In this document: positions 20,067 through 24,822 of the stretch, in pieces | Layout of the letters: every line of letters begins with the position of its first letter | How positions within the stretch are numbered: position 1 is the stretch's first letter | Assembly (NCBI GenBank): GCA_945863205.1 | Contig: CAMAZK010000019.1 | Span: 1-35,264, forward strand | Reading direction: 5' to 3' | Source of the DNA: Akkermansia muciniphila | GTDB lineage: Bacteria > Verrucomicrobiota > Verrucomicrobiia > Verrucomicrobiales > Verrucomicrobiaceae | DNA: 35,264 nucleotides | The notes under the pieces: generated by a model | What the model was told of the DNA's origin: nothing | The model's input: the letters and a program-made list of their open reading frames with translations, nothing else | Databases searched by the model: none | Translations under genes and position numbers: made by a program

Positions 20067-21143
20067 TCACTCCGCCCATGCCTCGCGCAGAAGGCGGAGG
20101 AAGTTGCCGTGCATGATGTTGGTGATGTCCGCGTCCGTGTAGCCGCGCTTCTGGAGCATCGCGGGGATGCGGGCAAGGTCGGCGATGGTGTCGAGGTCTT
20201 CAGGCGTCTGCTCGGTGCCGTAGCCGCCGTCGAGATCGGTGCCGATGCCGGAATGCAACGCATCACCCGCGAGCTGGCAGACGTGGTCGATGTGGTCGCA
20301 GATGACCTCCAGTTTGAGGCCGGTTTCCTGCGGGGTGGTCTTGCCGCGAGTCCATCCGGGAATCATCATCCACGCATCGAGGGCGGCGCCGATGACTGCT
20401 CCGCGCTCAATGAGAGCCTTGATCTGGTCGTCGGAAAACTGACGCGGATCGGGGACGAGGGCGCGGCAGTTGCTGTGGCTGGCCCAGACGGTGCCGTGAT
20501 GGAGTTCGAGGGCCTGCCAGAAGCATTCGTCGCTCAAATGCGTGACATCAAGGATCATGCTCAGGCGATTCATTTCCTGGATGAGTTCCTTGCCGCCAGC
20601 GGGAAGGGGACCGACCTGGTCGTGCCCCAAGGCGTACCGGCACACTCCATAGTGGGCGGGCCCCATCGCTCGAAGGCCCTGCTCCCATGCGTCTTCGAGA
20701 TGTCCGACGGTGCGAATGGAGTCCGCACCTTCGAGGCTGAGGATGTAGCCGATGGCCTTTTCGTCGTCGGGAATCGTGGAGTCATTCCACAGCGCGGTCA
20801 TTTCGTCCAGCTCGCGCAGGTTGGTGATCTGCCGGAGTTCCCCGGCTTCCTCCATCGCGCGATACCACGCGAGTTGGCCCTGTGTTTCCGCCCAGGCCTG
20901 TTCGGGGGACATCCAGCCGGCTATGGGCGAGGGGCCGGGCATGCAGCCTGCGAGCTGCGTGGCGACACAGAGCCCCACCTTGCCCCGGCGCATTTCCGGA
21001 AAGGCGGTGGTTCCGCAGGCCCGGCCCTTTCCGGTCATGCCGGCTTCGCGGCGCCGGATCTCGGCTACTGGCAGGCGAAGATCACGGTTGAAGCCGCCGA
21101 GGGCATTGAGGCTGAGGTCGAGGTGTGCGTCGAATGTGAGCAT
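20067..21143 (-). CDS. M19 family membrane dipeptidase-like protein
   Basis: 358 residues. The dinuclear zinc ligands of the renal dipeptidase family are all present: His7 and Asp9 in DAHLDL, bridging Glu138 in SLEGAD, His202 in DVTHLSDECF, His223 in ASHSNCRAL, and the active-site Asp303 in GTDLDGG. The family cleaves dipeptides, including D-containing ones, and some bacterial members act on other amides. No signal peptide, so it is cytoplasmic. Downstream of the two-component genes on the same strand but separated by 113 bases of repeat-like sequence, so co-transcription is uncertain. Confidence 0.92.
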   Translation of the reverse strand: MLTFDAHLDLSLNALGGFNRDLRLPVAEIRRREAGMTGKGRACGTTAFPEMRRGKVGLCVATQLAGCMPGPSPIAGWMSPEQAWAETQGQLAWYRAMEEAGELRQITNLRELDEMTALWNDSTIPDDEKAIGYILSLEGADSIRTVGHLEDAWEQGLRAMGPAHYGVCRYALGHDQVGPLPAGGKELIQEMNRLSMILDVTHLSDECFWQALELHHGTVWASHSNCRALVPDPRQFSDDQIKALIERGAVIGAALDAWMMIPGWTRGKTTPQETGLKLEVICDHIDHVCQLAGDALHSGIGTDLDGGYGTEQTPEDLDTIADLARIPAMLQKRGYTDADITNIMHGNFLRLLREAWAE

Positions 21144-21149
21144 GACAGG

Positions 21150-21262
21150 GAAATGACGAAACGAGAATGGCGAGTGACGAAAGGATGGGAGGGGAGGATA
21201 ATGATGACCTCACACTACGCGCGTCGCCAGATTCATCATTCTGCATTCGGATTTCGTCACTC
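21150..21262. repeat. Repeat-rich spacer, dispersed repeat copy 2 with an 11-bp inverted repeat
   Basis: GAGTGACGAAA (21172-21182) and its exact reverse complement TTTCGTCACTC (21252-21262) bracket the spacer between the peptidase and the response regulator, the right arm overlapping the regulator's stop codon. Inside lies TCATTCTGCATTCG (21236-21249), identical to the 14-mer at 17231. Variants of GACGAAACGAGAATGG and ATGACGAAA repeat on the left side. Composition is unlike the flanking genes. Confidence 0.5.
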
Positions 21263-21940
21263 GAAGCGGTAGCCCGCCCCGTGCACGGTGCGGATGATGC
21301 GGGGCTGGGAGGGATCCTTTTCGATGCGCTTGCGGAGCTGGGAAATGTGCTGGTCGAGGGCGCGGCTTTCAGGGAAGTAATCGACGCCCCAGACCTCGTC
21401 GGCCAGGGTGTTGCGGTCGATGACCTTGCCGCGGCGGTCGTGGAGCAGGCGGAGGACTTTGACGTCGCGCGGGCTCAGCGGGATTTCGCCCGGGCCGCGG
21501 TAGGCGCGGAGCTCCGTGGGGACGACGCGCAGGTCGTCCATGGTGAAGTCGTCGTCAGCCTTCCCCGCACCACGCGAGGCGGAGCGGCGCAGAATGGCGC
21601 GGATGCGGGCGATGATTTCCTTCACGCCGAAGGGCTTGGTCATGTAGTCGTCCGCGCCGAGTTCGAGCCCGAGCACCGTGTCGATTTCCTCCGCCTTGGC
21701 GGTGAGAAAGAGGATGGGCACTTTTTCATCCTGTCGGCGGATCTGCTTGCAGACCTCGTAGCCGTTGAGGCCCGGCATCATGACGTCGAGGCAGACAAAG
21801 TCGGGATTCTCCACGCGGAAAAAGTCCACGGCTTGGAGCCCGTCGCTCGCGGCGATGACTTCGTAGCCTTCCATGGTGAGCACCTCGCGCAGGGCGTCGC
21901 GCGTGTGGTCGTCGTCTTCGGCAATCAGGATTTTGGTCAT
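21257..21940 (-). CDS. OmpR/PhoB-family response regulator
   Basis: 227 residues. The receiver domain (1-118) has acidic residues at 9-11, the phosphoacceptor Asp52 (FVCLDVMMPG), Thr80 (LFLTAK) and Lys102 (MTKPFG). The C-terminal winged helix (about 130-226) shows EIPLSPRDVKVLRLLHDRRG, a recognition helix region RALDQHISQLRKRIE and the closing IRTVHGAGYRFE. It overlaps the kinase gene by four bases (ATGA), so the pair is one unit. DNA targets of this family are direct repeats with an 11-bp period; such an array exists upstream at 23814-23853. Confidence 0.95.
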   Translation of the reverse strand: MTKILIAEDDDHTRDALREVLTMEGYEVIAASDGLQAVDFFRVENPDFVCLDVMMPGLNGYEVCKQIRRQDEKVPILFLTAKAEEIDTVLGLELGADDYMTKPFGVKEIIARIRAILRRSASRGAGKADDDFTMDDLRVVPTELRAYRGPGEIPLSPRDVKVLRLLHDRRGKVIDRNTLADEVWGVDYFPESRALDQHISQLRKRIEKDPSQPRIIRTVHGAGYRFE

Positions 21941-23586
21941 GGCAGGTTCGGGAGGGTGAGGATGAAACGTGCGCCTTCGCGGTAATTCGGGCAGACGGTC
22001 AGCGAGCCGCCGTGCAACTGTGCCAGTTCCCGCGAGATGGTCAAACCAATGCCGGTGCCGCTGACCCCCTCGGTCAGGTCGGAGCGGAGGCGCTCAAAGG
22101 GTTCGAAGACACTGCGTCGCTTGCCAGCGGGGATGCCGGGACCGCGGTCCTCGACGATGACCCGCGTGTGGTGCGCGTCGCATTCCGTGCGGATGGCGAT
22201 CCACTTTCCGGCGATGCCATACTTGTCCACGTTGGAGATGAGATTGCCGAGGATCTGTTCCAGAGCGTCGGCATCGGCCTTGATGAGCGGCGGGCCGTTC
22301 AAGGAGTGTATGATCTCGAATCCCTTGTTTTCGAGCAGCGGCTTCCAAAATTCGATCGTGCGTGAGACGAGTTCGTCGAGGACGATCTCTTTAGGCTGGA
22401 TGGTGAGCTTGTCGCGTTGCTGACGGGCGTAGTTCAGCACGTTCTGGATCAGGCGATCAAGCCGCGAGGTTTCCGCCTCCACGACGCCGAGCTGCCTCTT
22501 GGCGATCGCGTCCCCCTGCGATTCCGCACGATGGGACGCCATCTCCGCGTAGAGACGGATGTTGGTCAGCGGGGTCTTCAGTTCATGGGAGATCTGGTTC
22601 ACGAAAGTGACGCGCTGCTGCGCCAGGCGGATTTCGCGGGCGCTCTCATGAAAGTAGAGCCAGCCGACGACGAAGACGAGCACGATGCCGGAGCCGACTC
22701 CGAGGAGGATCGGAAACAGGTAAGGCTTCGGAAACTCCTCGTTGGCCGGGCTGTAGGCGAGCTCCCATTGAGACAGCGGCTCTGAGCAGGCGCGATGTGA
22801 AGCGGCCGGGGTGTCTGAGCCGGCCAGTTGTTTGCCCCATTCATGAAGGGTGATGCCCTTGACCGTAGTCAACCTCATCCGACCGGAGGGCACCGCGAGT
22901 CCGGGCTGCGGCAGGCGTTTGAAAAGGGAGCGCATCAGGACCTGCGGGTTCATCAGGGCGCAGGCGAGGCCGCCGTCCGCAAAGCGGTGCCAGAAAATGA
23001 AGACCGAGTCTCCCACGTGCCAGCCGCTCCAGCCGTGCATGGCGTCCTGTTGCGCACGGTCATCGATGTGATAACCGAACATCTTGAGGTAGGTCATCCA
23101 TTCCGAGGTGCGGGTGGATCCGCTGCTGATGCGCTGGAACGGGGGGCCGCCATCATCCAGGAGCGGATTGAACTGAGGCAGGCTTTCAGGGACGCGGGTC
23201 GCTTCATCGATGGCGCGGTTGCGCGTTTCGCGATCAAAGATCGCCCCAGGGTTATAGGCCGCTTTTCCCTTGATGGACCGCACGGCACTCTCTCCGGGGG
23301 ACCACGACCAGCTTTCGGCCACCCAGGGATGTCGGGCGAGCCCTTCCGCCATCGCGACCGCAGAGGGGGCTTCCGCACCCCGACCGTCCAGGCGGTCCGT
23401 CAGCTGGCGCAGGTCGTGCAGCATGTGGAAGTCTGCCGAACTCAGCCTCTCGGCCAGAATCGCCTGCATGGAGGCATCGGTGCGCTTTTCCGCATCTCGT
23501 ATCAGGTACGTGCCGAGCCACGCCAGCAGGGCCAGCGGGAGCAGGACCAGAATGATGAAAAGGGTGGTGGAGCGGCGCTGAAACAT
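21937..23586 (-). CDS. Membrane sensor histidine kinase
   Basis: 549 residues. Membrane segments at 8-27 and about 289-312 enclose a periplasmic sensor region of some 260 residues with no recognised fold. The kinase core follows: H-box ISHELKTPLTN (332-342, His334), N-box ILGNLISNVDKYG (445-457), G1 EDRGPGIP (479-486), F-box FEPFERLR and G2 GTGIGLTIS (510-518). This is the HisKA/HATPase_c layout. The sensor does not look like PhoR, KdpD or other well-known types, so the signal is unknown. First gene of the pair; its promoter region holds a terminator, a palindrome and a possible operator (listed separately). Confidence 0.94.
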   Translation of the reverse strand: MFQRRSTTLFIILVLLPLALLAWLGTYLIRDAEKRTDASMQAILAERLSSADFHMLHDLRQLTDRLDGRGAEAPSAVAMAEGLARHPWVAESWSWSPGESAVRSIKGKAAYNPGAIFDRETRNRAIDEATRVPESLPQFNPLLDDGGPPFQRISSGSTRTSEWMTYLKMFGYHIDDRAQQDAMHGWSGWHVGDSVFIFWHRFADGGLACALMNPQVLMRSLFKRLPQPGLAVPSGRMRLTTVKGITLHEWGKQLAGSDTPAASHRACSEPLSQWELAYSPANEEFPKPYLFPILLGVGSGIVLVFVVGWLYFHESAREIRLAQQRVTFVNQISHELKTPLTNIRLYAEMASHRAESQGDAIAKRQLGVVEAETSRLDRLIQNVLNYARQQRDKLTIQPKEIVLDELVSRTIEFWKPLLENKGFEIIHSLNGPPLIKADADALEQILGNLISNVDKYGIAGKWIAIRTECDAHHTRVIVEDRGPGIPAGKRRSVFEPFERLRSDLTEGVSGTGIGLTISRELAQLHGGSLTVCPNYREGARFILTLPNLP

Positions 23587-23618
23587 GCGGCAGGTCTGAA
23601 AATTTAGCCCTGCGCAGC

Positions 23619-23641
23619 ATTTCGGCTACCCGAAATTTATA
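23619..23641 (-). promoter_or_regulatory. Palindrome and -10 box upstream of the kinase
   Basis: ATTTCGG-N4-CCGAAAT (23619-23636) is a perfect palindrome 33 bases from the kinase ATG. On the minus strand TATAAA (complement of 23636-23641) abuts it and would start transcription within the palindrome. It could be an operator, or a hairpin in the leader. No matching -35 box is visible; the position it would occupy lies in the terminator stem. Confidence 0.35.
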
Positions 23642-23775
23642 AAAACCATAAAAAGAACCGGGGCGGACTTTTTGGGTCCGCCCCGGTCAATTCAGTCGTG
23701 TTTCCAACAGCCAGAAGGATAACAACACCTTGAGAAATGGGTGATCAGCAGTCCGGCGGCAGCCCGCCCTTGTTC
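23640..23775 (-). ncRNA. Possible small RNA or regulated leader ending at the 23657-23687 terminator
   Basis: Between pyrB and the kinase there is no convincing protein gene, yet the region has an operator-like array (23814-23853), a weak -10 candidate TAGCAT (complement of 23779-23784 region) and a strong terminator. Together they could produce an RNA of roughly 110-140 nucleotides with an internal GGCGG-N4-CCGCC hairpin. A 22-codon frame starting MISERVQTS (23813-23745, minus) and a 34-codon frame starting MGDQQSGG (23737-23841, plus) also exist and cannot be excluded. Purely inferred; the start point is not fixed. Confidence 0.25.
23657..23687 (-). terminator. Strong intrinsic terminator between pyrB and the kinase gene
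   Basis: ACCGGGGCGGAC (23657-23668) pairs perfectly over 12 bp with GTCCGCCCCGGT (23676-23687), loop of seven. On the minus strand it is followed by TCTTTTTATGGTTTTT, a good U-rich tail. It ends whatever is transcribed leftward from pyrB or from the space between, and lies about 205 bases past the pyrB stop, which is far for a simple operon end. Confidence 0.85.
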
Positions 23776-23813
23776 TTCGATCTGATGCTAGTCTGCACCC
23801 TTTCTGAAATCAT

Positions 23814-23853
23814 GAGTCAGGCGCTTGTGAGCAGGTTGTAAGGAAAATGTCAG
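23814..23853 (-). promoter_or_regulatory. Four-heptamer tandem operator of PhoB/OmpR type
   Basis: On the plus strand: GAGTCAG (23814-23820), TTGTGAG (23825-23831), TTGTAAG (23836-23842), ATGTCAG (23847-23853), each separated by four bases, an exact 11-bp period. Read on the minus strand they are CTGACAT, CTTACAA, CTCACAA, CTGACTC, resembling the E. coli Pho box heptamer CTGTCAT with the same 7+4 layout, and oriented for transcription towards the kinase gene. The array starts 40 bases past the pyrB stop. The regulator encoded at 21257-21940 is the natural candidate to bind it (inference). Confidence 0.5.
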
Positions 23854-23892
23854 ACGCGTTTTTCGGCGGAATCGCCGCCGGACGCGGCCTTT

Positions 23893-24822
23893 TCAGCCCT
23901 CGATGGCACCAGGCCGCAGCCAGTAGAGCACGCTCATGCGCACGGCGATGCCGTTTTCCACCTGCTGATTGATCAGGCACTTCTCGTAGTTCATGCCGGC
24001 GTCGGTGATCTCCACCCCGCGGTTCACCGGACCAGGATGCATGAGGTGGAGGCCGCGCTCGCGCAGGATCTCCACCCGCTCGTCGGTGAGGCCGTAGTTG
24101 CGGTGATACTCCGCCGCAGAAGGGAAGAAGGGTTCATCGAGCCGCTCGCTCTGCACCCGCAGGAGGTAGATCACATCCGGCTTCCATTCGAAGGCGTCAC
24201 GCCAGTTCCCGAACTGCCGGATCTCCGGCGGCACCTCCCGTGGCATCATGGACCCCGGCGCCAGATAGGCGACGCTCATGCCGAGGCGGCGGAAGATCAG
24301 GCTGGTGCTGCGGGCCACGCGGGAGTGCTGGATGTCGCCGACAATCAGCGCCCGGCAGCCGCGCAGATCTTTGTGAATCTCCCGCAGGGTGAACGCATCC
24401 AGCAGCGCCTGGGTGGGATGGGCGTGCCAGCCGTCACCGGCATTGATGACGCTAGCGCGGGTGTTTTTGGCGATGAGGCTCGGGATGCCGGCCTGCTTGT
24501 GCCTCACCACGATATAATCGACGCGCATGGCCTCCAGCGTTTCGACCGTGTCGAGAACCGACTCACCCTTCACGACGCTCGATGATTCGATGTCGAAATT
24601 CGTGACGTCGGCACTGAGCCGGTTGGCGGCCACTTCAAAGCTGGAGCGCGTGCGGGTGGAGGGCTCGTAGAAGAGCGTGAGCATCGTCTGGCCCTTCAGC
24701 GGGGGCACCTTCTTCACGCTGCGTTTGAAGAGGTCTTTGAAGGGGCCTGCGTTGTCGAGCACGAACGCGATTTCCTCATCCGTGAGCGAGGCGATGTCGA
24801 GGAGGTCTTTGCGCGGGGTCAT
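23893..24822 (-). CDS. pyrB: Aspartate carbamoyltransferase catalytic subunit
   Basis: 309 residues, the enzyme joining carbamoyl phosphate and aspartate in pyrimidine synthesis. Carbamoyl phosphate site FYEPSTRTRSSFE (51-63), the Lys-containing loop SSVVKGESVLDT (81-92), HPTQALLDAFT (135-145), GDIQHSRVARS and HPGPVNRGVEI near the end are intact. Its start overlaps the pyrR stop by four bases, so the two are translationally coupled. No pyrI regulatory subunit or pyrC is adjacent. About 70 bases past its stop begins the region with the operator-like heptamers. Confidence 0.97.
   Translation of the reverse strand: MTPRKDLLDIASLTDEEIAFVLDNAGPFKDLFKRSVKKVPPLKGQTMLTLFYEPSTRTRSSFEVAANRLSADVTNFDIESSSVVKGESVLDTVETLEAMRVDYIVVRHKQAGIPSLIAKNTRASVINAGDGWHAHPTQALLDAFTLREIHKDLRGCRALIVGDIQHSRVARSTSLIFRRLGMSVAYLAPGSMMPREVPPEIRQFGNWRDAFEWKPDVIYLLRVQSERLDEPFFPSAAEYHRNYGLTDERVEILRERGLHLMHPGPVNRGVEITDAGMNYEKCLINQQVENGIAVRMSVLYWLRPGAIEG

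Follow-up and report, generated by a model that had tools for sequence, protein, structure and literature searches.

CiaR of Streptococcus is an OmpR-family regulator whose operator, like the one described below, is an 11-bp direct repeat, and LuxO is a sigma-54 activator. The streptococcal csRNAs comprise several siblings at scattered, species-specific sites that are under strong control of a two-component regulator, and they act via complementarity to mRNAs (PMC4211561). In the Vibrio Qrr system, a two-component regulator drives sibling RNAs that have an invariant target-pairing core (PMC4211561). A 2022 survey reported only eight distinct small RNAs annotated for the entire Planctomycetes-Verrucomicrobia-Chlamydiae group (PMC9029176), and in the open-licence literature searched we found no relevant account of a small RNA under two-component control in Prosthecobacter or other Verrucomicrobia.

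The locus considered here lies in a window of 35,264 nucleotides (the whole stretch of DNA analysed, to which all window coordinates refer). Its closest analogue is the CiaR-csRNA system (CiaRH, Streptococcus), in which sibling RNAs are likewise under one two-component regulator. However, the phylum is different, the operator array has four heptamers as opposed to two hexamers and is almost confined to RNA genes, the predicted target is a pilin-like leader, and the core of the RNA is UGGCUGUUGG. With Qrr/LuxO the locus shares a two-component regulator and several sibling RNAs with a common core, but here the promoter has an extended -10 and the regulator is of the OmpR type. A further difference from both systems is that Rfam release 15 returned no match, either for the window stretch (E up to 1) or for seven paralogue loci (gathering scores). 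Because no Rfam family matches, we class the verrucomicrobial RNA as a new family within a kind of circuit already known.

A predicted small RNA between pyrB and a kinase gene

The unit occupies the minus strand between pyrB (which ends at 23893) and a kinase gene (which starts at 23586). The initial annotation had pointed to four heptamers here, and they are indeed present (operator 23814-23853): CTGACAT (H1, 23847-23853), CTTACAA (H2, 23836-23842), CTCACAA (H3, 23825-23831) and CTGACTC (H4, 23814-23820), separated by TTTC, CCTG and GCGC, with a period of exactly 11 bp. Scored against a C-T-n-A-C-A core, the array reaches 19 of 20 (shuffle maximum, 14), and a three-heptamer pattern with zero mismatches finds this array as its single site in the window's own genome. 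An extended -10 follows (23790-23797; TG at 23797-23796 and CAGACT at 23795-23790), which takes the form TGnSANNNT in relatives and places the predicted transcript start near 23783.

The predicted small RNA (23649-23783, minus strand, ∼134 nt) takes its start from the -10 and its end from the terminator. The ∼130 bases in which no clear gene had been recognized have no conserved reading frame in relatives. Within them, TCCTTCTGGCTGTTGG (23704-23719) is invariant in aligned relatives and includes the family-wide core TGGCTGTTGG (23713-23704), the predicted target-pairing site. The intrinsic terminator (23649-23688), initially described as 12 bp with a U-rich tail, is real and has 13 pairs, 10 of them G-C, in a stem at 23688-23656 with the U-rich tail CTTTTTATGG.

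Beyond the terminator is the kinase-regulator operon, as had been proposed: a sensor histidine kinase of 549 aa with a putative extracytoplasmic dCache-like domain (21937-23586) and an OmpR/PhoB-family response regulator of 227 aa (21257-21940), both on the minus strand. A putative separate promoter for this operon (23601-23629, minus strand), conserved in the aligned loci, reads GTAGCC (ATGACC in relatives), 17 bp, then TAAATT. Its -10 is just 14 bp before the kinase ATG (window 23586-23610), so that the mRNA of the kinase probably has almost no leader. Neither this promoter nor the extended -10 nor the invariant TCCTTCTGGCTGTTGG appeared in the initial annotation. Directly downstream from the regulator is a membrane dipeptidase (M19) gene (20067-21143), which is 88%-93% identical and syntenic in the near relatives and is a possible operon partner.

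The RNA is a multicopy family with a covarying terminator

Searched at the DNA level, 21 of 56 genomes from the window's kin contain the stretch. The aligned loci keep the array, the -10, the core, the terminator and the second promoter, and the gene upstream varies; three further loci carry the unit with no kinase. With the heptamer pattern by itself, contig C80 of the window's own genome proved to carry a second complete copy, which precedes a phosphoesterase-like gene. This copy (L138 1383-1476, orthologous to L080-L094) is ∼170 nt from the metallophosphoesterase-like gene, which is conserved behind it, in the same direction, in many genomes.

A covariance model (R1) built from the 3' half of the RNA had matches in 40 of the genus's 48 genomes; the strong copies number about 95 and lie at sites with and without the kinase. 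A 41st genome (G009) was recognized using R2 and reading of the locus, the terminator of its copy being masked by N. Terminator-only and antisense model matches were left out of these counts. Copies usually number one to five per genome (mostly two to five), the siblings share the array and the core, and many copies are far from any kinase. When the scan was widened to the order (387 genomes), the sole further matches were in two genomes of a sister genus, where one RNA copy is again directly upstream of a kinase homologue. Records that carry kinase homologues bear the names Prosthecobacter sp. and Verrucomicrobiaceae bacterium.

Some matches required individual decisions. Those at G000:C365 and G000:C2/C131 lack an array and were rejected as family members. 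At the first of these (L362 1501-1587; G000:C365:1619-1705), a core-like CCTGCATGGCTGTTGG and a terminator stand directly behind a PEP-CTERM-like frame; the element is either a decayed copy or chance. A kinase-linked copy in G023 (L017, contig C12) lacks the array and core and keeps the terminator and kinase promoter; this genome retains other copies of the RNA.

Covariation supports the terminator. Compensatory changes occur at all 12 modelled pairs, 95.5% of cells pair, and none of 500 shuffles reached any of the measures. For a middle hairpin that would present the core, a wide test was negative, and a restricted test gave a value ∼3 standard deviations above the shuffle mean, yet one that the best shuffle also reached. 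A 5' hairpin has one covarying pair only. Both hairpins are possible, and we give them little weight.

The commonest 9-mer of the RNAs is GGCTGTTGG, present in 92 of 96 copies. Such conservation could be imagined to reflect a small conserved peptide and not a regulatory RNA, given that the core reads NTG GCT GTT GG in some copies. However, the spacers after the core differ in length by non-multiples of three and codon third positions within the core hardly vary (there is nearly no synonymous variation at GCT GTT), which makes a peptide unlikely. Moreover, the start codon is not conserved: the ATG near the RNA start in the window is ATTC in most relatives. We find the coding explanation scarcely credible.

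The initial annotation had left two choices, either that the regulator controls a small RNA or that the leader is an attenuator of the system's own expression, controlling whether transcripts begun at the array promoter continue into the kinase operon. As in known attenuators and leader RNAs, a terminator does stand upstream of the operon on the same strand, here between the array and the kinase, and some read-through is always possible. Nevertheless, attenuation fails as an explanation because most copies have no kinase nearby (in many genomes the unit stands alone), because the operon behind it has its own conserved putative promoter past the terminator, and because in many relatives the kinase-regulator pair lacks a leader of this kind. 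In addition, the conserved core matches a message elsewhere, and no alternative anti-terminator fold was seen. We consider attenuation very improbable. The choice that gains support is control of a small RNA, the operator and RNA forming an autonomous, multicopy unit to which the regulator would bind. The unit has its own promoter, no conserved frame, an intrinsic terminator and independence of flanking genes, and there are several related RNAs per genome with a common operator and core. Judged on these sequence features, the stretch is a small-RNA gene, widely conserved in Prosthecobacter-like Verrucomicrobia, and not an attenuator.

The operator is nearly exclusive to the small-RNA genes

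To place the array on a common scale, each copy was given a four-heptamer score out of 20, and 1,920 shuffles of the family's upstream sequences served as the control. Scores of 13-19 were obtained for 94 of 96 copies, and 84 of the 96 exceeded the maximum of the shuffles, which never surpassed 14. The consensus is CTnACAA N4 CTTACAA N4 YTYAC N6 CTGAC. Among the 77 copies with a readable array, 68 have exactly 15 bases between heptamer 4 and the TG of the extended -10. Tandem ∼11-bp repeats in phase upstream of a -10 are characteristic of OmpR/PhoB-type direct-repeat operators.

The initial annotation had suggested looking for the array upstream of other genes and in relatives. Across 15 genomes, the four-heptamer pattern (two or fewer mismatches) has 28 distinct sites, and all 28 are just upstream of a family member; the reversed pattern, used as a control in the same genomes, has none. 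These same promoters supplied the pattern, which would therefore overlook sites elsewhere that are weaker or spaced in another way, and it is for the genomes searched with this pattern that the operator appears almost exclusive to small-RNA genes. A third subfamily (L096, L113, L116-L119 and L128) has the core TTCCTGCATGGCTGTTGG and a shifted array whose last heptamer is CTGACAC, and it often faces a XylR/AraC-like regulator gene.

The heptamers had been likened to Pho-box units. This holds for the class of operator, in that Pho boxes are also 11-bp direct repeats upstream of a -10 and PhoB is of the same family as the regulator here, but it does not hold for PhoB sites as such. The heptamer is CTnACAA compared with CTGTCAT in the Pho box, and the last heptamer is 18 bp from the -10. 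In the genus, a PhoR-like and PhoB-like pair adjoins PhoU at a separate locus, and a scan of the PhoU regions found no array. The two pst promoters read (G058 and the window's own genome) have the palindrome TGTGACG-N4-CGTCACA in place of the array; at least two copies occur in each of the pst/porin intergenic regions (L204 6257-6550 in G058; L207 3757-4060 in the own genome). This palindrome is a candidate phosphate operator of the genus, distinct from the heptamer array. The regulator scores 195.5 bits against a PhoB equivalog cut-off of 296.2, and the kinase 133.8 against a PhoR cut-off of 334.2. Assignment to the phosphate regulon was rejected on the grounds of these scores and the different motif at pst promoters.

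The adjacent two-component system is the likeliest controller

The kinase has HisKA and HATPase domains (a search for a PAS domain gave no match), and the regulator has a receiver and a winged-helix domain. The model of the kinase outer domain (pLDDT 82) was compared with known structures. The best E-value was 6e-4 (8w7p), and structural comparison gave a Z of 9.1 with an rmsd of 4.5-4.6 over ∼175 residues at low identity, with many dCache sensors among the matches listed; a sequence search of the PDB with the sensor profile found no match. On this model, the outer domain looks like the dCache type that senses amino acids and other small molecules.

The regulator is 77%-95% identical in nearly all relatives read. 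Kinase orthologues were found in 38 of the 48 genomes: 37 have both kinase and RNA, four the RNA only, one the kinase only, and six neither (Fisher p 1e-4, a value that ignores shared ancestry, and shared clade history could produce the association). The genomes that have the RNA with no detected kinase are G009 (90% complete), G021 (93%), G006 (74%) and G020 (68%). The kinase and RNA are adjacent both in the genus and in the sister genus.

Given these observations, the inference with the best support is that the array is a site for the adjacent regulator. It should be noted that the same small RNA could be served by another OmpR-family regulator, such as PhoB, with adjacency to the kinase pair being historical. 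The window's own genome has seven OmpR-type DNA-binding domains, and both the four kinase-free genomes and the Pho-box-like layout of the array would fit that idea. It is, however, countered by the persistence of adjacency in two genera, by the co-occurrence of kinase and RNA, by the other motif at pst promoters and by the lack of an array in the PhoBR-PhoU regions scanned. Overall, we judge binding by another regulator unlikely, and the adjacent regulator is taken as the controller in what follows.

The conserved core matches the leader of a pilin-like gene

The pilin target was first met by searching with the complement of the core, CCAACAGCCA, and so was selected; its conservation was tested afterwards. 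The whole-genome frequency of CCAACAGCCA is not much above that of a control pattern, and in several genomes it falls just before a start codon. Two of these cases, from different species, are orthologous pilin-like genes, and a third is a GspG-type pseudopilin gene (L225 1500 in G005, 23 nt before the ATG), which may be a second target. Occurrences in pst genes were rejected as targets, being inside the pstS coding sequence at conserved codons.

Pilin-like leaders were then compared across 29 genomes. CCAA(C/T)AGCC lies 19-34 nt before the ATG in 28 of the 29, and the other differs at the first base. The block is otherwise invariant, with C to T in three genomes (the G-U pair is kept), and its flanks are A/C-rich and diverge. 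If the motif is not chosen in advance, the commonest leader 9-mer is CCAACAGCC (25 of 29 genomes, ∼25 nt before the ATG), and the RNAs' own commonest 9-mer is its exact reverse complement. The longest exact complementarity between RNA and leader is 9-12 nt in 25 of the 28 genomes that had RNA copies for the comparison, always at the core (shuffled mean, 7.1). Whole-leader RNAduplex energies compared with shuffles gave no signal (mean z -0.4).

The pilin-like protein carries the N-methylation motif, with PilA as the best partial match; in G023 its gene is the first of at least four pilin-like genes in a row. The gene occurs in none of the seven genomes that lack a detected RNA, and a search of the window's own, 79% complete genome did not find it.

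There are other ways to account for the core. The RNA may act on a protein (as a sponge) or chiefly on non-pilin messages, or CCAACAGCC may be the leader's own translation enhancer. Pairing with a single target would not by itself demand a core this conserved, and the motif is near the ATG of other leaders in single genomes (the GspG-like L225, and L275, L278, L286 and L288). What speaks against these options is that the best-conserved 9-mers of leader and RNA are exact complements, and that the sole change within the 9-mer common to several genomes (the C to T in three) preserves pairing. We regard them, taken together, as improbable. Pairing with the pilin-like leader is preferred, and these bacteria probably tune surface pili through RNA.

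A proposed circuit and its implications

The explanation that best fits the sequence evidence, and that we hold with reasonable confidence, is a small RNA of ∼134 nt under two-component control through the array, which would pair with the pilin-like leader. An extracytoplasmic signal would be sensed by the dCache-type kinase, and the phosphorylated OmpR-type regulator would occupy the four heptamers, spaced at 11 bp, in the form of two tandem dimers. Bound in this way, it would recruit RNA polymerase to the extended -10 at a fixed distance. Transcription of the RNA would stop at the intrinsic terminator, and the kinase operon would therefore be read from its own promoter. The core would then pair with CCAACAGCC(A/C), ∼25 nt before the start codon of the type IV pilin-like mRNA, most likely lowering its translation. 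Repression seems likelier than activation because pairing 20-30 nt before the ATG would crowd the landing site of the ribosome, although the sign is a guess with a modest lean to one side.

A bolder and somewhat doubtful extension is that this two-component system has an RNA-only regulon, its only strong operators driving sibling RNAs, so that the sensing of an outside ligand would act entirely by way of RNA on a type IV pilin-like operon. An operator found almost only at small-RNA genes would make an unusual regulon. More generally, an uncharacterised verrucomicrobial RNA family comes with a likely sensor, an operator, a promoter geometry and a target match that is exact and conserved; with all of these in hand, each step is testable, and there is a handle on how these bacteria may control their surface pili.
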